A stretch of DNA of 56,864 bases from a virus: the IMG/VR virus record IMGVR_UViG_3300028392_000077, positions 1 to 56,864 of that record. The stretch is one strand, 5' to 3'. The notes under the pieces were generated by a model, which ran no database searches, was not told the DNA's origin, and saw only the letters and a list, made by a program, of their open reading frames with translations. Of the stretch, positions 3,101 through 53,691 are shown one piece after another; within the stretch, counting starts at the first letter, position 1; each line of letters begins with the position of its first letter. Made by a program: the position numbers and the translations under genes.

Positions 3101-6100
3101 TATGTTCCATATGCATTTACACTTGTAGTTGAACTTACTATAGGACCATTATATGTTCCATATGATGTCGCCGCACCAGATTGATTATTTGCTTTTGGTT
3201 GATTGATTGTTCCGAATCTAGCTGTAGTGGTGGTTGTATCGTTTTCATTTCTAACAAATGTACCAATATTACCGACAACGAAAGCGCCCGGTGTGGATTC
3301 ATACGACTGACTTTCTAAGTTTGTAACTCTTATTGAACCACCAACTGTTAATGATACTGTTGGTGTGGTATTGGATATACCCATTCTACCATTAACAACA
3401 TCAAATACGTATGCAGAGTTGGAATATGCAATATTATTACCAGATGTTCCTAATGACAAATAAGGATAATAGGTTCCTGTAGTTGCAGTTGTTATTGTTT
3501 CATAAGTTGCAACATTAGCTGAATCAACAATACTGGTTACTGCTGTTCCTGGAATTGATATTGCAGTGTTGGTTACTGATAGTACACGTCCGTTTGCGGT
3601 GAGTGTAGTTACTGGAATATAAGATGAGTTACCATAAGTTGTTGCTGTTACTGATATTGAAGTAACATCTGTATTTGCTAATGATTGTAATGCAGAGATG
3701 CTAGTATTCTGTGTAGTATCAACACCAGAAACATATGAGATTTGACCATCCGTATATGCCTTTAATTGAGTATTGGCTGATGTTACGGATGAACTTATTG
3801 CACCATCGGTATATGCTTTTAGTTGTGTATTAGCTGAACTAATAGCACCATCAGTATAGGACTTTAGCTGAGTATTGGCTGATGTTACTATACCGTCCGT
3901 ATAGGACTTCAGTTGAGTGTTAGCACTAGAAACCAATCCATCTGTGTATGCTTTTAACTGTGTATTAGCTAAACCAATGTTAGTGTTTGTTTGATTTAAA
4001 GCACCAAATAGATATACAGTATTAGCTTCAACCGTACTGATTCTAGTGTTTTGTGCAATATCAACACCGGAAATATAAGAAATGAATCCATCTGTATACG
4101 ATTTTAACTGAGTATTAGCTGATGTTACAGAAGAACTGATTGCACCATCTGTATAAGACTTCAACTGAGTATTGGCTAATGTTACAATACCATCAGTATA
4201 AGATTTTAATTGTGTATTAGCTAATCCAATATTAGTATTGGTCGCATTTAATGCACCAAATAGATAAACTGTATTGGCTTCAACGGTGTTTAATCTGGTA
4301 TTCTGTGTAGTATCAACACTAGAAACATAAGAGATTTGACCGTCAGTGTATGACTTTAATTGAGTGTTGGCTGAAGATACTGAAGAACTAATAACACCAT
4401 CTGTATATGATTGTAATTGAGTATTTGCCGATGATACAGCAGAACTGATTGCGCCATCTGTATATGCTTTTAGTTGTGTATTGGCTGAAGATACGGATGA
4501 TGAAACTAAACCATCGGTATATGCCTTTAACTGGGTATTGGCATTTACAATACTTGAATTCTGTGCAGTATTCACACCAGAAATATATGCAATATTGGCA
4601 TCTAACCAAGTTTGTGTATTGGTTATATTTGTGTTCTGTGTTGCATTGATACCATTTTGTTCAGAATCAACTGCATAATAACTACCGTGTTGACCATTCA
4701 AATAGTCGGCGTTTAGATTTGTTACTAACTGTGTTGAAGATGTGGATATTTTACCAAATGTTACAGTATTGGCCTGGAAGTCCGCAATTCTAAAGGTTGC
4801 ATTACTTGTATCAATGTATGGTGATGCATCAGGTTCTGGTTTGTAATTATCAAAAACTTTCCAGATTCCATCGGAGTGGTCTCTAAAGAAACCGGCATGA
4901 TGATATGTACCATCATTATAATTACCAGCAAAACCTAAATCTGGATTAGCAACATTGTTATCATCATTCAGATAAATCATATTATCTTTCAGTATCAGAT
5001 TATTTGATGATACTGTAGTGACAATACCACTAACAGTTAAATTGCCAGTAATTGTAAGATTTGCCGAAATCGTGACATCTCCAGTGATATTTCCACCGGA
5101 AGTATTGAACTTTAAATTGGCAGTATTATACGCACCTTGTGCTAGATTTGTAGCTGTGGTGATATTCGTATTCTGCGTATTATTGATGTTGTTTACATAT
5201 GAGATTTGACCATCAACATATGATTGCAACTGAGTATTGGATGAACTAATAACACCATCAACATAAGACTTTAATTGAGTATTAGCTGAACTTACTGAGG
5301 AACTGATGGCGCCATCAGTATAAGACTTCAGTTGAGTATTTGCTGAAGTTACAGCAGAACTAATAGCACCGTCAGTATAAGATTGTAATTGCGTATTAGC
5401 ACTGATAATACTGTTATTAGTTGCATTCAATGCACCAAATAAGTAAACCGTATTAGCTTCAACTGTTAATAATCTGGTATTTTGAGTATTATCTATACCT
5501 TGATTATAACTTATTTGTCCGTCAACATAAGACTTTAATTGATTATTAGCAGAACTAATAGCACCATCAGTATAAGATTTCAGTTGAGTATTGGCTGAAG
5601 ATACGGATGTTGAAACCAATCCATCTGTATATGATTTTAACTGCGTATTAGCACTAATGATACTGTTATTAGTTGCATCTAATGCACCAAATAGATAGGT
5701 GGTATTAGATTCTACTGTCGATAATCTGGTATTCTGTGTTGTATTTACATTAGAAACATACGAGATTTGACCATCAATATGTGATTTTAACTGGGTATTT
5801 GCTGAAGCAATAGCACCATCAGTATAACTCTTTAATTGAGTATTAGCATTGGTTATATTAGTATTGGTTGCATTTAAAGCACCAAACAAGTAAATCGTAT
5901 TAGATTCAACAGTAGAAATTCTATTGTTTTGTTCAGTGTCAATACCAGAAACATAAGATAATGTTGTTGATACCTGACCATCAACATAAGATTTTAATTG
6001 TGTGTTGGCTAAACCAATAGCACCATCTGTATAAGATTTTAACTGGGTGTTAGCTAATACAATGTTGGTGTTGGTCTGATTTAAAGCACCAAACAAGTAA

Positions 6101-7956
6101 ACTGTATTTGCTTCTACTGTTGTTAATCTGGTATTCTGGGTAGCATCAACACCAGAAACATATGAGATTTGACCATCAACATATGATTTTAACTGAGTAT
6201 TAGCACTAGTGATAGCACCATCGGTATAAGATTTTAACTGTGTATTAGCTAATCCAATATTAGTATTGGTCTGATTTAAAGCACCAAATAAGTAAACTGT
6301 ATTGGCTTCAGTGGTGGTGATTCTGGTGTTCTGCGTTGTATCTACACCTTGGGTGTAGATTGTATTTGCTTTATTACTATTAATCTGTGTAACATAGGCA
6401 TCAGTGAACGCAGTATTCTGCCAAGTGTTATCTGGAAATATTAAATGTGAATTTGCAAAAGACCAAGTATTGTTTATTGTACCATCGGTTCCAGTTACGA
6501 TTTGAACTGTGTCGTATCTGTTGGAACCTAATTTAGTTTCGTTATTTAATGAGAGGAAATTTCCATCATAACTACCACCATAAATTGAATTCAATTGTAT
6601 GGATTTTCCGACAAATCTAGGCCCAGCACCAGAACCACCAGATGGATTGATTCCGATAATACCAATATCACTCATTTCAATACTGGATGTACCACCAGGT
6701 GAATATAATATTGGCGTGTATACTGCTAGATTTGCAGTTAAGTTGTTTGCAGTAATATCACCAGAAACTACACCACCAGTTAGTGGTAACGCATTGTTGG
6801 CTGTGTTCCATGCTGATTGTATGCTATTGTTTTGTGTTGCATTAATAACAGAAACATATGATATTTGGCCATCAACATAAGATTTCAACTGTGTATTTGC
6901 AGAAGATACTGATGATGAAATTAAACCATCAGTATATGATTTCAACTGTGTATTAGCAGAACTAATAGCACCATCCGTATATGCCTTTAATTGAGTATTG
7001 GCTGATGTTACTATACCGTCTGTATATGATTTCAGTTGGGTGTTAGCTGAAGATACAGCAGAACTAATAGCACCATCTGTGTATGATTTTAACTGTGTAT
7101 TAGCTAATCCAATATTAGTATTGGTCTGATTCAAAGCACCGAACAGATAAACTGTATTAGCTTCAACGGTACTAATTCTAGTGTTCTGAGTTGAATCCAC
7201 ACCTTGGATATAGATTGTATTTGCACTTGCGAAATTGGCAGTATTAGCTGTATCTCTGACAAATTGACTATCTGAAATGACCGCAGTGGTCATATAGGTG
7301 CCGTCAGCAAACTTCAGAACATTGGTATTCGCTTCAATAAACTTAGCATTGGCCGCAACAGTCAGGCCAATACTCATATTATCAATGGTACCTGTGTTGG
7401 CCGAATAGATAGTTACATGGTCACTACCTGTATTTGGACCGTACACATTAATACTGGAAGCGGAACCATAAACTTCAAGACTGGTCTGGTCAATACCACC
7501 ATAGATATTGGCGGAAATAATGTCAGCAACAACCCAGTTGTTTGCTAAATCATAATGGAATGATGGGTTTGAACTGAATGTGCCATGAAGACCTACGAAC
7601 TGTATATCGCCGATGTTGCCATTAGCTGATCCGCCTCCACCACCTCCACCCCCACCTTCACCAAATGCAGAGATTGTAATTGTTTTTGTTAGTGTGCAAG
7701 CAGTAAGTGCAACATTTGCACCAGAAACAAAATTAAGTGTATCTGAACCAGATGACGCTAATATCAGTGTCGTATCTACACAGATAGCATCAAAAGACTT
7801 CTGATTGGTTATATAAGATACTGTGCCGTCGGGTTTGGAATAGAATAACTTGGCGTCCGCAGCGTTTAGTGCAATTTCACCATTCGCTAATGAAGACGGA
7901 GTATTACCACTAATTAGTGATTTTTTTAATTTAATTGTGGTATTTGATGTCGTCAT
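121..7956 (-). CDS. Giant tail fibre/adhesin with Mtd-N-like head and peptidase S74 chaperone tail
   Basis: This 2611-residue protein is the largest gene in the window. Residues about 6-55 (TIKLKKS...PSSLANGEIALN) resemble the N-terminal virion-docking domain of Mtd-type receptor-binding proteins, and a glycine run follows near residue 100. Most of the chain is low-complexity repeat: about 37 copies of [11 protein letters not shown]-type units and ten copies of an ANTVYLFGALN unit. At about 950-1095 there is a module with GNLTVSG, LGFAGNYNDGT and HAGFFRD, also found in two neighbouring fibres. Two long globular modules at about 1420-1790 and 1970-2330 are duplicates of each other. The last 90 residues (SDETQKTN, AGVIAQQLEKILP) are a peptidase S74 intramolecular chaperone, expected to trimerise the fibre and then cut itself off just before the Ser of SDE. 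It most likely binds the host receptor. Family recognition is good, but the receptor is unknown. Confidence 0.85.
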   Translation of the reverse strand: MTTSNTTIKLKKSLISGNTPSSLANGEIALNAADAKLFYSKPDGTVSYITNQKSFDAICVDTTLILASSGSDTLNFVSGANVALTACTLTKTITISAFGEGGGGGGGGGSANGNIGDIQFVGLHGTFSSNPSFHYDLANNWVVADIISANIYGGIDQTSLEVYGSASSINVYGPNTGSDHVTIYSANTGTIDNMSIGLTVAANAKFIEANTNVLKFADGTYMTTAVISDSQFVRDTANTANFASANTIYIQGVDSTQNTRISTVEANTVYLFGALNQTNTNIGLANTQLKSYTDGAISSAVSSANTQLKSYTDGIVTSANTQLKAYTDGAISSANTQLKSYTDGLISSSVSSANTQLKSYVDGQISYVSVINATQNNSIQSAWNTANNALPLTGGVVSGDITANNLTANLAVYTPILYSPGGTSSIEMSDIGIIGINPSGGSGAGPRFVGKSIQLNSIYGGSYDGNFLSLNNETKLGSNRYDTVQIVTGTDGTINNTWSFANSHLIFPDNTWQNTAFTDAYVTQINSNKANTIYTQGVDTTQNTRITTTEANTVYLFGALNQTNTNIGLANTQLKSYTDGAITSANTQLKSYVDGQISYVSGVDATQNTRLTTVEANTVYLFGALNQTNTNIVLANTQLKSYTDGAIGLANTQLKSYVDGQVSTTLSYVSGIDTEQNNRISTVESNTIYLFGALNATNTNITNANTQLKSYTDGAIASANTQLKSHIDGQISYVSNVNTTQNTRLSTVESNTTYLFGALDATNNSIISANTQLKSYTDGLVSTSVSSANTQLKSYTDGAISSANNQLKSYVDGQISYNQGIDNTQNTRLLTVEANTVYLFGALNATNNSIISANTQLQSYTDGAISSAVTSANTQLKSYTDGAISSSVSSANTQLKSYVDGVISSSNTQLQSYVDGQISYVNNINNTQNTNITTATNLAQGAYNTANLKFNTSGGNITGDVTISANLTITGNLTVSGIVTTVSSNNLILKDNMIYLNDDNNVANPDLGFAGNYNDGTYHHAGFFRDHSDGIWKVFDNYKPEPDASPYIDTSNATFRIADFQANTVTFGKISTSSTQLVTNLNADYLNGQHGSYYAVDSEQNGINATQNTNITNTQTWLDANIAYISGVNTAQNSSIVNANTQLKAYTDGLVSSSVSSANTQLKAYTDGAISSAVSSANTQLQSYTDGVISSSVSSANTQLKSYTDGQISYVSSVDTTQNTRLNTVEANTVYLFGALNATNTNIGLANTQLKSYTDGIVTLANTQLKSYTDGAISSSVTSANTQLKSYTDGFISYISGVDIAQNTRISTVEANTVYLFGALNQTNTNIGLANTQLKAYTDGLVSSANTQLKSYTDGIVTSANTQLKSYTDGAISSANTQLKAYTDGAISSSVTSANTQLKAYTDGQISYVSGVDTTQNTSISALQSLANTDVTSISVTATTYGNSSYIPVTTLTANGRVLSVTNTAISIPGTAVTSIVDSANVATYETITTATTGTYYPYLSLGTSGNNIAYSNSAYVFDVVNGRMGISNTTPTVSLTVGGSIRVTNLESQSYESTPGAFVVGNIGTFVRNENDTTTTTARFGTINQPKANNQSGAATSYGTYNGPIVSSTTSVNAYGTYNNIIRGGNNPYDTGTAGFLYGTFNNIRHLYDVNANTSIVTGSAYTTYNAQTFALGSLNNSYSVYNAISLGTNAAASANITNFYGSYLTASIGAAAGANTSTITNYYGAYYGAPQVASSGRITNRYAIYSSDPASNTFFQGPIYSANTITASTIIAGGVDIINYVNSSNTQLKAYVDGQVSSTLSYVSGVDTSQNTRLTTVEANTVYLFGALNQTNTNIALANTQLKSYTDGIVTSANTQLKSYTDDAISSSVSSANTQLKSYVDGQVSSTLSYVSGVDNSQNTRITNVEANTVYLFGALNATNTSITNANTQLKAYTDGAIALANTQLKSYVDGQISYVSGVDTSQNTSITALQTLANTDYTTISVTATTYGNSSYIPVTTLAANGRVLSVTNTAISIPGTAVTSIVSSANVSTYDSITTATTGTYYPQLTAGVSGNNQSYANNAFVFDITNGRLGISNTSPTVALTVGGSVRVANLESQAFESVAGTTSNYNIGTLVRNENDAATSTIRVGTLNQPKANNQSGAATAYGTYNTPIVSSNTSVVVYGNYTLIDRGGNNPYDTATTGTMVGTYNNIRHLSHANANTSISSSTLYATYNNINCSVGSVTNAYGTYNRGYVGYNSPLTLSTITNYYGTYTLFAAGSGVGPTGTLTNYFGAYFDTPLVGTNGVITNKYAIYSADVASNTFFQGPIYSGNTITASTIIAGGVDVINYVNSANTQLKSYTDGQISYGSGVNTSQNTSISALQTLANTDYTTISVTAGDYGSATIVPVIKLAANGRISSISNTNITAGATITDDTTTNASRYVMLGQSTSGSYTVANTSSTKLTYNPSTGTLSATAFVGNGAGLTGISAGATITDDTTTNATRYIMLGQSSSGSYLVANTSTSKLYFNPSTGTTYSTLFQSLSDETQKTNLTPIVNATDTLKQIDGFEFDWRDNGLKSAGVIAQQLEKILPWLVSENDGVKSVNYSGLIAYLIQSNKELSDRIEKLENK

Positions 7957-50982: not shown

Positions 50983-51525
50983 TTAATCTTCTAGACGCCA
51001 ATGATAGAATGTATAAATTGCAAATTCATCTGGTTGACAATCCAATCTATCTCTCCAATGAGGATATTTTCGACCTTCCATTAATAGACCAGTGCCTACT
51101 GGAATGACGAAATCTTCTTTATCGGACTTAAACAATTCGATGTGTTGAGTATTTTGATTCCACTCATTACCATCAACAAGACTCAGTTTCGAAACACTGA
51201 GAGGCCATTTTGTTTGAATATTGGAAAAAACACAGATACCCAGAGTTATATCCAATCCTCCTCTGTCTGTGTGAATATCCAATATAGATTCATTTCTATA
51301 AATCCTCGAATAAGAATTCTCAAATTCTATGTTGGGATATTCTTCTCTAACAATATTTTCGACTTGTAACAAATATTTCAAAGTTACTGGTAGATTATAT
51401 GATCCTAGGGAGTTTTTATAATAAGGAGGTTGTTCCTCATGTAATGATCCTTTCGACCACAGTGATTGCATTGCATCCGATACCTGATCGCATTGATCAA
51501 CAGATAATATATTTTCAAACATCAT
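50983..51525 (-). CDS. 2OG-Fe(II) oxygenase family protein
   Basis: This protein of about 180 residues starts at ATG 51525 (MMFENILSVDQCDQVSD), with GGGGAG upstream. An earlier GTG would enlarge the overlap with the preceding gene. The HxD is H85-T-D87 (LDIHTDRGGLDITLG), the distal histidine H156 (KYPHWRDRLD), and a basic residue follows. It resembles phage 2OG oxygenases of unknown substrate. It overlaps the upstream P4H-like gene by 11 bases, so the two oxygenases are co-expressed. Confidence 0.75.
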   Translation of the reverse strand: MMFENILSVDQCDQVSDAMQSLWSKGSLHEEQPPYYKNSLGSYNLPVTLKYLLQVENIVREEYPNIEFENSYSRIYRNESILDIHTDRGGLDITLGICVFSNIQTKWPLSVSKLSLVDGNEWNQNTQHIELFKSDKEDFVIPVGTGLLMEGRKYPHWRDRLDCQPDEFAIYTFYHWRLED

Positions 51526-52123
51526 TAATAACAGTCTCCCCTGCACTATTAAACTTATTTTCTCTGATCCATGTTATCAGTACATACTTTATACCAGAAG
51601 TAACAGGTAACCCTGCGTGTTCTGAGTCACGATTTAGATTACCATCAACATCAATATTTCTCCAATAACATAATAACCCCTTTTGAGGTTTCACTTTTTT
51701 ATTTAGCTGATAAAATTTTGTTTCTCCACCAGTAAAATTGTCATTTAGATATAGAATACATGAGTATATTCTTTGTCCACCTTGACTCATGGTTCTGTCA
51801 TAATAATTAGTACCTGGATGAAAAAAATCATTATGTCTTTTATATTGACATCCTATTTTATATTCTACAATGTGTGGTGTTTCGAAATTATCTATGGACA
51901 TACCAGTTAAGTCTTTTAATTTTTCCTGGTATTTTTTAATTAAATCATCACAATTATTCGATATCCAATCAAACTTAGCACTTCTATAACCGGGAACATA
52001 TTCTCCCAAAGTACCACTTCCACCATTATCGGAGTATCGAAATTCTTTAGTGTAGTTTTCTAATATAGAATCACACTCTTCTTCGGTGAAGAAATTTTCT
52101 ATTGTATGAACTTCTGTTGTCAT
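51515..52123 (-). CDS. Prolyl 4-hydroxylase-type 2OG-Fe(II) oxygenase
   Basis: This 202-residue protein has the P4H layout: HxD at H97-N-D99 (KRHNDFFHPG), RIYSCILYLNDNFTGGETKF, then distal H169 (SEHAGLPV) and 2OG-binding K179 (SGIKYVLITWIRE). That lysine in place of arginine is typical of prolyl 4-hydroxylases. It is directly downstream of the tmRNA gene, with about 18 bases between, and overlaps a second oxygenase gene. The substrate is unknown. With the PKHD enzyme near the collagen-like fibre, this makes three such enzymes in the window. Confidence 0.88.
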   Translation of the reverse strand: MTTEVHTIENFFTEEECDSILENYTKEFRYSDNGGSGTLGEYVPGYRSAKFDWISNNCDDLIKKYQEKLKDLTGMSIDNFETPHIVEYKIGCQYKRHNDFFHPGTNYYDRTMSQGGQRIYSCILYLNDNFTGGETKFYQLNKKVKPQKGLLCYWRNIDVDGNLNRDSEHAGLPVTSGIKYVLITWIRENKFNSAGETVINDV

Positions 52124-52141
52124 GATTAATATTGAATTAGT

Positions 52142-52456
52142 GGTGGGTATTGAGTACCAAGGAACCCACCGAACCCCGACTAAGCAGCTAGTGCGTAGTT
52201 GTAATCGCTATCATTTGCAATTATTTTATTTATCTTCTACGACCGGGTAACCCCAATCCTAACGGCTTCCGATACTTGCCGATTCTCCGATGTTCTTTCA
52301 ATGCGCTGTCGAATCTATGTCATCCCCATCAGAAGTATTCTATACTACGTTCCACTTTGTGAAGGAATCGAACCTTCATCGCTGTATAAAATACTTTTGG
52401 TGGAGATGGCCGGTACCGCCCCGGCGTCCAACGCACCTATTTCAACATCATCAACG
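52142..52456 (-). ncRNA. ssrA: Permuted two-piece tmRNA (ssrA)
   Basis: Read on the minus strand, an acceptor piece comes first and ends at 52398: GGACGCCGGGGCGGTACCGG, then the acceptor strand CATCTCC, discriminator A and CCA. A 70-base spacer (52328-52397) follows, then the coding piece starting GGGGATGACATAGATTCGAC (52327 downward), which matches the conserved tmRNA 5' end. GGGGATG pairs fully with CATCTCC (one G-U), making the 7-bp acceptor stem. A tag frame at 52218-52180 reads ANDSDYNYALAA then TAG. It is followed by a hairpin with a GGTGGGT/ACCCACC stem. The acceptor-before-coding order is that of permuted tmRNA genes. It should rescue stalled ribosomes and tag peptides for degradation during infection. 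The 5' limit of the acceptor piece is uncertain. Confidence 0.92.
52328..52397 (-). other. Pre-tmRNA spacer with extended stem and T-arm-like hairpin
   Basis: The spacer between the acceptor and coding pieces starts and ends with arms that pair over 13 bp (52384-52396 with 52333-52345, one G-U), continuing the acceptor stem outward. Inside is GAAGG-TTCGATT-CCTTC (52361-52377), a perfect 5-bp stem with a canonical 7-base tRNA T-loop. The mature acceptor piece has GCCGG-GGCGGTA-CCGGC, whose loop lacks TTC. The spacer hairpin may serve processing enzymes. Confidence 0.8.
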
Positions 52457-52463
52457 AATTCTT
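52440..52463. repeat. Imperfect direct repeat, copy 1 (tmRNA side)
   Basis: This 24-base stretch matches the 39-base copy at 52713-52751 apart from a 15-base gap. It lies just upstream of the tmRNA acceptor piece, while copy 2 is inside the end of the Bfd-like gene. The two copies flank the lipoprotein gene. Confidence 0.8.
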
Positions 52464-52691
52464 TTACTTGGTATTCGCCTTAGTGAATACTCTATCAAAC
52501 TTAGCATTCAAATCTGAATGTTCACTCTTAATGGCTTCATGGTCAGAAACAATACTAGCATGCTGTGCTTCGTGAGTTTGATGTGCTGTTTCAAGAGCAG
52601 ACACCCTATCTCGCAAAGAATCCACATCCTTAGTGGATGCACAACCGACCATACTAAACATAACCATTGCCAATACAATAAACTTACTCAT
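52464..52691 (-). CDS. Small Lpp-like lipoprotein
   Basis: This 75-residue protein has a signal peptide MSKFIVLAMVMFSM with lipobox MVGC (Cys17). A helical mature part follows (VDSLRDRVSALETAHQTHEA, SDHEAIKSEHSDLNAKFDRV) with heptad spacing like the coiled coil of Lpp. The RBS AGGAGA is well placed. It is expected to be anchored in a host membrane. Roles could include superinfection exclusion, an outer-membrane spanin component or envelope support. It lies between the Bfd-like gene and the tmRNA and is flanked by an imperfect direct repeat. Confidence 0.75.
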   Translation of the reverse strand: MSKFIVLAMVMFSMVGCASTKDVDSLRDRVSALETAHQTHEAQHASIVSDHEAIKSEHSDLNAKFDRVFTKANTK

Positions 52692-52701
52692 ATTATTTCT
52701 C

Positions 52702-52857
52702 CTAATTTATATTTTCAACATCATCATTGATAAATTCATCAACGAATTCTTCTAGGCATTTACCACAACAAAGGTCATCTTCCATAAGTCTGGTTATTAA
52801 TGTTTCTTTGTCTGTATATTCAGAATTCCGAATATCTCTACAAATACAAACAACCAT
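52702..52857 (-). CDS. Bfd-like [2Fe-2S] ferredoxin domain protein
   Basis: This 51-residue protein starts at ATG 52857, one base after the stop of the upstream small gene. It has VCICRDIRNSEY at the N-terminus (C4, C6) and CCGKCLEEFV near the end (C31, C34, with an extra C30). CxC followed by CxxC is the iron-sulfur motif of bacterioferritin-associated ferredoxin (BFD). The gap is 24 residues, shorter than the usual 31-32. It might draw electrons to release host iron, or serve another redox role such as supplying iron for the nearby 2OG oxygenases (speculative). Confidence 0.7.
   Translation of the reverse strand: MVVCICRDIRNSEYTDKETLITRLMEDDLCCGKCLEEFVDEFINDDVENIN
52713..52751. repeat. Imperfect direct repeat, copy 2
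   Basis: This 39-base copy lies at the 3' end of the Bfd-like gene. Removing 15 internal bases gives the 24-base copy at 52440-52463. Confidence 0.8.
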
Positions 52858-52858
52858 C

Positions 52859-52990
52859 TTACTTAATTCTTTGTGTTTTCTTGCCTTTTAAACTTTTCTT
52901 GGTAATCTTCTTGTACAGTTTAGCCTCCTTTTCAGGATTCTGCTTGAAGATTGCTTCGAAGTATTTTTGAATGAGTTCTTTAACTTTCAT
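52859..52990 (-). CDS. Small basic protein, 43 residues
   Basis: The frame MKVKELIQKYFEAIFKQNPE... is Lys-rich (KKITKKSLKGKKTQRIK at the end) and helical. Its ATG sits at the predicted transcription start of the consensus promoter just upstream, so the mRNA would be nearly leaderless. It is followed one base later by the Bfd-like gene. It could be a small DNA- or RNA-binding protein, or only a leader. No homologue is recognised. Confidence 0.5.
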   Translation of the reverse strand: MKVKELIQKYFEAIFKQNPEKEAKLYKKITKKSLKGKKTQRIK

Positions 52991-52996
52991 TGGAAC

Positions 52997-53025
52997 ATTA
53001 TACCACAAAGTTAGATTCCTGTCAA
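52997..53025 (-). promoter_or_regulatory. Consensus sigma70 promoter for the Bfd-lipoprotein-ssrA group
   Basis: Minus-strand TTGACA, a 17-base spacer and TATAAT, all exact. It lies at the end of the nuclease gene. Transcription would start at about 52990, at the ATG of the 43-residue frame, and run through Bfd-like, the lipoprotein and ssrA. Confidence 0.85.
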
Positions 53026-53691
53026 TCTTTTTGGATTATCCAAGTATCTATAATACTTGATATATTCTCCTAATTTATATATATGATCTGTTGTTTTCTC
53101 GACATAGATTAATGGTTGTTCATCTTCTACTGCCATAATAATAACAATTTGATCAATAGGAATTCCAATCATTTCCTCATACATTAGTGCATATGCTGTG
53201 CATTGTGCAAAATAATCAGGAATATCTTCCTTTGATTTTAGTCTTTTACTTGTTTTAAAATCAATAACAGAAAGAGTACCATCAAATTCACCGATACAAT
53301 CAACTCTACCTGCCATCATCAATTTTAAAGACCACAGAGCGCATTCCTGATAATGAATGTTGTTGATTCTATTGAGATGTGGTTTAATCGACTGGAACAT
53401 CTCCAGTGCGTCTGGCATGGGTGTTCCGAGTGATTGATTGTTGAGATAGTTCTCACACAATGTGTGTAAATTGGTGCCCCGTCTAGATGCTTTAGCGGAT
53501 ATCTTATTGGCAACTTCTTCACCAACTCTTTGTCTCCACTCCATGATAGACTTTTTCTTTTGGGCACCAATTACAGTGGTCACTGATGGTAATTTTTCTC
53601 CCGTTGGAGTGATATAATATCTTTTACCATCTTCAAATGTTTTAGCCTCGATATCGGGTAATACCTTTGGCGGACAAAAATTAAAAATCAC
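53011..53691 (-). CDS. RecB-type PD-(D/E)XK exonuclease
   Basis: This 226-residue protein starts at GTG 53691, overlapping the phoH stop (GTGA). It has SVTTVIGAQKKKSIMEWRQR, RGTNLHTLCENYL (H76), GRVDCIGEF (D131) and VIDFKTSKR (D144, K146), then AQCTAYALMYEEM. This is the RecB/Cas4-like nuclease core found in many T4-like marine phages as a DNA exonuclease. It probably acts in recombination or host DNA breakdown. The gene follows PhoH directly. Confidence 0.85.
   Translation of the reverse strand: MIFNFCPPKVLPDIEAKTFEDGKRYYITPTGEKLPSVTTVIGAQKKKSIMEWRQRVGEEVANKISAKASRRGTNLHTLCENYLNNQSLGTPMPDALEMFQSIKPHLNRINNIHYQECALWSLKLMMAGRVDCIGEFDGTLSVIDFKTSKRLKSKEDIPDYFAQCTAYALMYEEMIGIPIDQIVIIMAVEDEQPLIYVEKTTDHIYKLGEYIKYYRYLDNPKRLTGI

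Follow-up and report, generated by a model that had tools for sequence, protein, structure and literature searches.

We analyzed a stretch of 56,864 nucleotides (hereafter, the window), a 56.9-kb IMG/VR virus record that is possibly a fragment. The record is that of a T4-like phage: it encodes gp32, the gp59 helicase loader, a gp33-like late regulator, PhoH, an exonuclease, and baseplate wedge and tail proteins, and the closest homologues of its gp32 are those of cyanophages and marine T4-like phages (about 55-57% identical). At about 52460-52139, on the minus strand, lies a circularly permuted tmRNA gene (ssrA). The Rfam covariance model RF04321 (tmRNA_permuted) matches 52460-52180 (-) with 120.2 bits (cut-off 47, E 5.9e-23), RF01849 (alpha_tmRNA) matches 52502-52139 (-) with 96.8 bits (cut-off 50, E 3.5e-25), and ARAGORN predicts a permuted tmRNA with the tag ANDSDYNYALAA at the same locus. 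The fold of the precursor is more stable than 100 out of 100 shuffles (z = -4.95), and a chance match is ruled out by the Rfam models, ARAGORN and this z-score. An earlier interpretation made from the letters (hereafter, the sequence-only reading) had proposed a phage-encoded permuted tmRNA here and suggested a search with Rfam models; with two of them far above their cut-offs and the T4-like proteins on the record, both the identity and the phage origin are borne out. Its placement of the gene at 52142-52456 hit the right locus, but the full element is slightly longer and the strand had been left unstated.

The gene is laid out in the order acceptor piece, intervening sequence (IVS, or spacer) and coding piece, all on the minus strand. 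The acceptor piece (52398-52460; Rfam tmRNA_permuted and ARAGORN) comprises the 5' strand of P2, GGAC, a T-arm (GCCGG-GGCGGTA-CCGGC) and the acceptor 3' strand; sequence mapping places this last element, CATCTCC, at 52408-52402, followed by A73 at 52401 and an encoded CCA at 52400-52398. The IVS (52328-52397, from the ARAGORN segmentation and the fold) is 70 nt long, ends in a conserved TGAT and is predicted to be removed. The coding piece (52142-52327 by ARAGORN, to 52139 by alpha_tmRNA) starts with the acceptor 5' strand GGGGATG, mapped to 52327-52321, and continues through a D-like loop, the 3' strand of P2 and the resume and tag frame to a 3'-terminal hairpin, GGTGGG...CCCACC (52142-52170, MFE fold). 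The acceptor stem forms across the spacer with 7/7 pairs (G-C, G-C, G-U, G-C, A-U, U-A, G-C), including the G3-U70 wobble, which alanyl-tRNA synthetase (AlaRS) reads. The tag frame (52180-52218; ARAGORN and direct reading) has a GCA resume codon, a hydrophobic AA end and a TAG stop. All sequence-level hallmarks that can be checked (stem, G3·U70, A73, CCA, GCA resume codon and piece order) are present. The sequence-only reading had described the same full pairing of GGGGATG with CATCTCC, the same acceptor-then-coding order and a tag ending in YALAA before TAG, and the product ends that it predicted, 52398 and 52327, coincide exactly with the borders of the predicted pieces.

The neighbourhood of the gene, PhoH-exonuclease ... 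gp33-gp59-gp32, is the same in phages Melnitz (MZ577097, an OM43 phage) and HTVC008M (NC_020484.1, a Pelagibacter, or SAR11, phage). Its syntenic anchor is a PD-(D/E)XK exonuclease gene at 53011-53691 (-) (PHROG 298, E 1.2e-75; PF12705). Upstream of the tmRNA unit, a consensus scan finds a 12/12 sigma-70-type promoter match (52997-53025, minus strand; TTGACA-17-TATAAT with TG); the match has an extended -10 and overlaps the exonuclease stop codon. Just upstream of the acceptor piece, and in the same direction, lies a gene for a putative 75-aa lipoprotein (52464-52691, minus strand; lipobox-like MVGCAS), for which no clear family was found. A 51-aa ORF at 52702-52857 (-), MVVCICRDIRNSEY...CCGKC..., resembles by eye a bacterioferritin-associated ferredoxin ([2Fe-2S]) domain. 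A direct repeat (gaattcgttgatgatgttgaaa-like), likewise seen by eye, is shared by the 5' flank of the tmRNA (52440-52465) and the 3' end of the 51-aa ORF (52717-52755); as it flanks the lipoprotein gene, it suggests that this gene was inserted between the copies by duplication. Adjoining the tmRNA, a ferrochelatase-like PHROG match and a 2OG-Fe(II) oxygenase, at 50983-51546 (-) and 51515-52123 (-), form a small iron-related cluster.

Related phage genes and the proposed working of the tmRNA

Two-piece tmRNA genes are already known from phages, and the window adds one more phage to the list of published carriers. The two-piece form makes up 53 of 133 unique phage tmRNA structures and occurs in 17 of 47 Melnitz-cluster contigs (PMC9004378). 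The Methylophilales phage Melnitz itself carries a two-piece ssrA and a glutamine riboswitch (PMC9004378), a combination that the sequence-only reading had correctly named for a methylophage. Melnitz resembles the window in its permuted two-piece tmRNA, its alpha_tmRNA match, its DYALAA tag end and the order PhoH - PD-(D/E)XK nuclease - ssrA - gp33 - gp59. It differs in its spacer (142 nt, versus 70 nt with a T-arm motif in the window) and in the riboswitch directly after the tmRNA, which the window lacks: as the sequence-only reading had noted, none is found there, with nothing in 51300-53300 up to E 5 and the positive control, Melnitz, detected. In HTVC008M we found a permuted tmRNA (about 145100-145450, 90.6 bits) that is unannotated in the isolate record. 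Like that of the window, it is placed after the exonuclease and a small ORF; the lipoprotein gene that the window has between small ORF and tmRNA is missing, the tag is ANFNEYALAA, and the spacer is 49 nt long without a T-arm, as opposed to 70 nt with one.

Permuted ssrA genes recur at one and the same genomic position in T4-like aquatic phages, the unannotated copy of HTVC008M being a further case. ARAGORN calls a permuted tmRNA in 35 of 85 loci scanned (the window, the 80 relatives in IMG/VR that are nearest to it by exonuclease, and four hits from pattern scans); our phage tmRNA sets come from pattern-based scans, so that such prevalence figures describe samples. One pattern hit (L085) and its neighbours were rejected as tmRNAs, being mostly tRNA-Thr arrays. 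A nucleotide search with the window tmRNA against annotated phages gave just short, weak matches.

Might the gene be a passenger, an ssrA that the phage acquired from a host and that is in the course of decay? Genes of the tRNA type do get picked up by phage genomes, and the Rfam score of 120 bits lies below the 140-176 of good bacterial genes. However, the window tmRNA has no broken pair and no lost tag, isolate phages hold the gene at the same syntenic place, and its position in the tree is inside a clade made up of phage genes alone. All unique phage permuted tmRNAs collected (253/253) moreover retain A73, G3-U70 and the full 7-bp stem, a figure that is partly selected, as patterns and ARAGORN favour good genes. 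Pairs 4, 5 and 6 of the stem vary in this set with compensatory changes, and this covariation is less affected, since the pattern scans left these pairs free. Conservation together with compensatory change argues for selection rather than decay, and we regard a decaying passenger as very improbable.

In the core tree, the window belongs to a clade (support 0.81) whose 19 members are all from phages and which nests within a mostly beta-type set (support 0.74-0.94). The alpha_tmRNA match and the T-loop GGCRGTA fit the alpha subtype, yet the tree position is in the beta-dominated set; T-loop type is therefore an unsafe guide to source in phages. T-loop types are mixed within this one clade, unlike in bacterial RF04321/RF01849 tmRNAs, which otherwise share all tRNA-like-domain features and the gene order with the window. 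The sequence-only reading had taken the end of the tag as closer to beta/gamma tags, but YALAA is common: it ends 48 of 204 unique phage permuted tmRNA tags and also those of Melnitz (ANDNYVPVDYALAA) and HTVC008M, both alpha-type tmRNAs, so it is no marker of a beta/gamma source.

Taken together, the models, tag, fold, conserved stem, shared neighbourhood and perfect consensus promoter upstream support the reading that the locus is, very probably, a working permuted ssrA of a T4-like aquatic phage, serving ribosome rescue by a two-piece tmRNA. Ribosome rescue and tagging by the two-piece tmRNA of Caulobacter are reported in work cited by PMC9004378. In the phage, the acceptor and coding pieces of a single transcript would fold as a tRNA-like domain with the intervening hairpin at its acceptor end; host tRNA-maturation nucleases would cut after CCA and before GGGG, removing the hairpin, and base pairing would keep the two pieces together. 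Host AlaRS could then charge the tmRNA through G3-U70, and host SmpB would bring it to stalled ribosomes, where it would append (A)ANDSDYNYALAA to the stalled products, the ALAA end serving ClpXP-type proteases. The phage may gain by keeping ribosomes free and clearing broken proteins while host mRNA and DNA degrade.

No SmpB gene was found in the window and 14 related records (several of which are fragments); as neither it nor the glutamine riboswitch was found, the window tmRNA most likely uses host SmpB. The lack of a phage SmpB would also suit the main rival explanation, in which the phage tmRNA is a decoy or modulator, chiefly tying up host SmpB or ribosomes or replacing the host tag with one of the phage's choosing, rather than raising the capacity for rescue; there is a precedent in the DS6A phage tmRNA, consisting of a TLD only and reported to inhibit host tmRNA (PMC4131195, PMC11915505). 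A pure decoy, on the other hand, would have no need of the full tag frame, ALAA end, resume sequence and stop that are kept here, and ALAA ends 139/204 phage tags. We therefore judge a decoy role unlikely and favour ribosome rescue.

Some related loci depart from this pattern. Tags of 20-31 aa, as compared with the usual 10-14 aa, occur in 33/261 unique phage permuted tmRNAs (L277, L470, L488, L508, L554 and others); they form mostly conserved families, e.g., ANADTFDFSAMSFTGNTVSGKSKVALAA, with raw dN/dS of 0.30-0.39. One phage record (G008, locus L058) has two different permuted tmRNA genes, both above the Rfam cut-off, at 172862-173101 and 143658-143932 on the minus strand. Phage-like permuted tmRNAs, with a long clamp spacer ending in TGAT and the tag ANDNVDMG.., also occur in bacterial genomes, mostly Microvirga (L340, L357, L389, L398, L446); one of these genomes (G016) has a normal alpha type as well, which suggests a mobile-element copy.

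The intervening sequence of the window

Spacers are longer in phages than in bacteria (median 83 versus 40 nt) and more often end in TGAT (84% versus 32%). In the window, the MFE fold closes the IVS with a 13-bp clamp helix (52333-52396, minus strand; 52396-52384 with 52345-52333), and among phage IVS that reach 40 nt, 89% have a clamp that is 8 bp or longer. The window IVS further contains a hairpin like a tRNA T-arm, GAAGG-TTCGATT-CCTTC (52361-52377, minus strand), with 5 Watson-Crick pairs and a canonical TTCRANY loop. No full tRNA was found in this spacer, either as an RF00005 match up to E 5 or as an ARAGORN tRNA. Such a motif (at least 4 Watson-Crick pairs) occurs in 9/204 unique phage acceptor-plus-spacer sequences, about 50-fold more than in dinucleotide shuffles (mean 0.19, maximum 3 in 200). 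It is absent from the antisense strand of the 204 sequences and from 81 bacterial spacers (0/81), which are shorter than the phage ones.

T-arm spacers may be either decayed captured tRNA genes or a tRNA-like shape that aids processing. For the window, we consider it possible, if somewhat doubtful, that the hairpin is a functional tRNA mimic recruiting tRNA maturation enzymes to the precursor, a proposal that concerns one part of the spacer and is no alternative to the tmRNA identity. The enrichment over shuffles, antisense strands and bacterial spacers points that way, as do two related loci (L025, L100) in which the entire spacer folds cloverleaf-like, with the clamp in place of the acceptor stem. 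But the motif is present in just 4% of phage spacers and at varying positions, the window hairpin is not adjacent to the 3' strand of the clamp, and the motif would be explained equally well as what is left of a tRNA gene once captured. A nominally archaeal MAG, GCA-2688965, has an intact tRNA-Ala in its permuted tmRNA spacer, noted as unique (PMC11915505); it resembles the window in having a tRNA-type sequence there, although in the phage this is a T-arm alone.

Protein genes in the spacers of related phages

In 13/203 unique phage spacers, a Shine-Dalgarno sequence precedes an ORF that is 15 or more codons long and whose stop is precisely the TGA within TGAT, versus 0.5 expected in shuffles (maximum 3 in 300). 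No such ORF is found in the bacterial spacers (0/81, of which 25 are at least 60 nt long), and the window spacer has no Shine-Dalgarno sequence, start and ORF ending at TGAT. The Shine-Dalgarno sequence directly follows CCA, and a scan for the pattern CCA - Shine-Dalgarno - ATG gave at least 111 new loci. ARAGORN makes at least 98 tmRNA calls in them, all permuted among the matches listed; two of these calls fall in a single locus, and three are segmented wrongly.

The encoded proteins are small and mostly membrane proteins (mostly with one span, 21-44 aa). Family A has 21-24 aa (MNDDLTNLGIGVVVVLVVFALVLL), family B 26-29 aa, family C 34-44 aa (..WSICADI..) and family E, which is soluble, 52 aa; loci include L003, L064, L126, L170, L252, L277, L313, L319, L336, L455, L460 (family C) and L463 (family A), among others. 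L111 encodes 73 aa in its spacer, and the 239-nt spacer of L172 (ARAGORN tmRNA at 5735-6283, minus strand) a protein of 68 aa, whose weak match to DUF2061 falls slightly short of the cut-off. Comparison with PHROGs gave no clear family for the micropeptides, and a tblastn search with two of them against annotated phages gave no match, probably owing to the low-complexity filter.

In the two largest families, dN/dS of about 0.2 indicates purifying selection on the spacer proteins, with the qualification that sequence pairs are not independent: raw dN/dS is 0.20 for the 24-aa group of family A (15 sequences; third positions account for 895 of 1556 pairwise differences) and 0.19 for the 44-aa group of family C (8 sequences). 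The 23-aa (0.61) and 21-aa (0.41) groups of family A are weaker. Similar genes also lie outside spacers: in L151 a C-like peptide gene immediately precedes the tmRNA, in L302 and L331 an E-like gene adjoins it, and L277, L490, L499, L500 and L506 have stand-alone homologues of the L172 protein. It thus looks as if genes enter and leave the slot.

These observations lead us to propose that the IVS of phage permuted tmRNAs is probably a slot for gene cargo: that of the window holds a tRNA-like hairpin, while those of relatives may hold a gene for a small, mostly membrane protein with its own ribosome site. The ORF part of this proposal comes from related loci, as does the weight of the spacer finding; the window tmRNA itself is ordinary. 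One transcript would then yield both tmRNA halves and an mRNA. As the Shine-Dalgarno sequence is mostly paired within the clamp, translation may require that the clamp be unfolded or the precursor processed. The literature searched (subscription journals lay outside its coverage) yielded no description of the spacer as a slot for hairpin or protein genes, and none of spacer ORFs. Many phages have conserved protein genes in a spacer that was thought to be discarded, and translation of these genes would connect small membrane proteins with ribosome rescue during infection. The spacer of Melnitz (L649) holds TTGGAGAAGTATATG and a 41-codon open frame that runs to its last base with no stop, so that the released spacer would be a non-stop mRNA.
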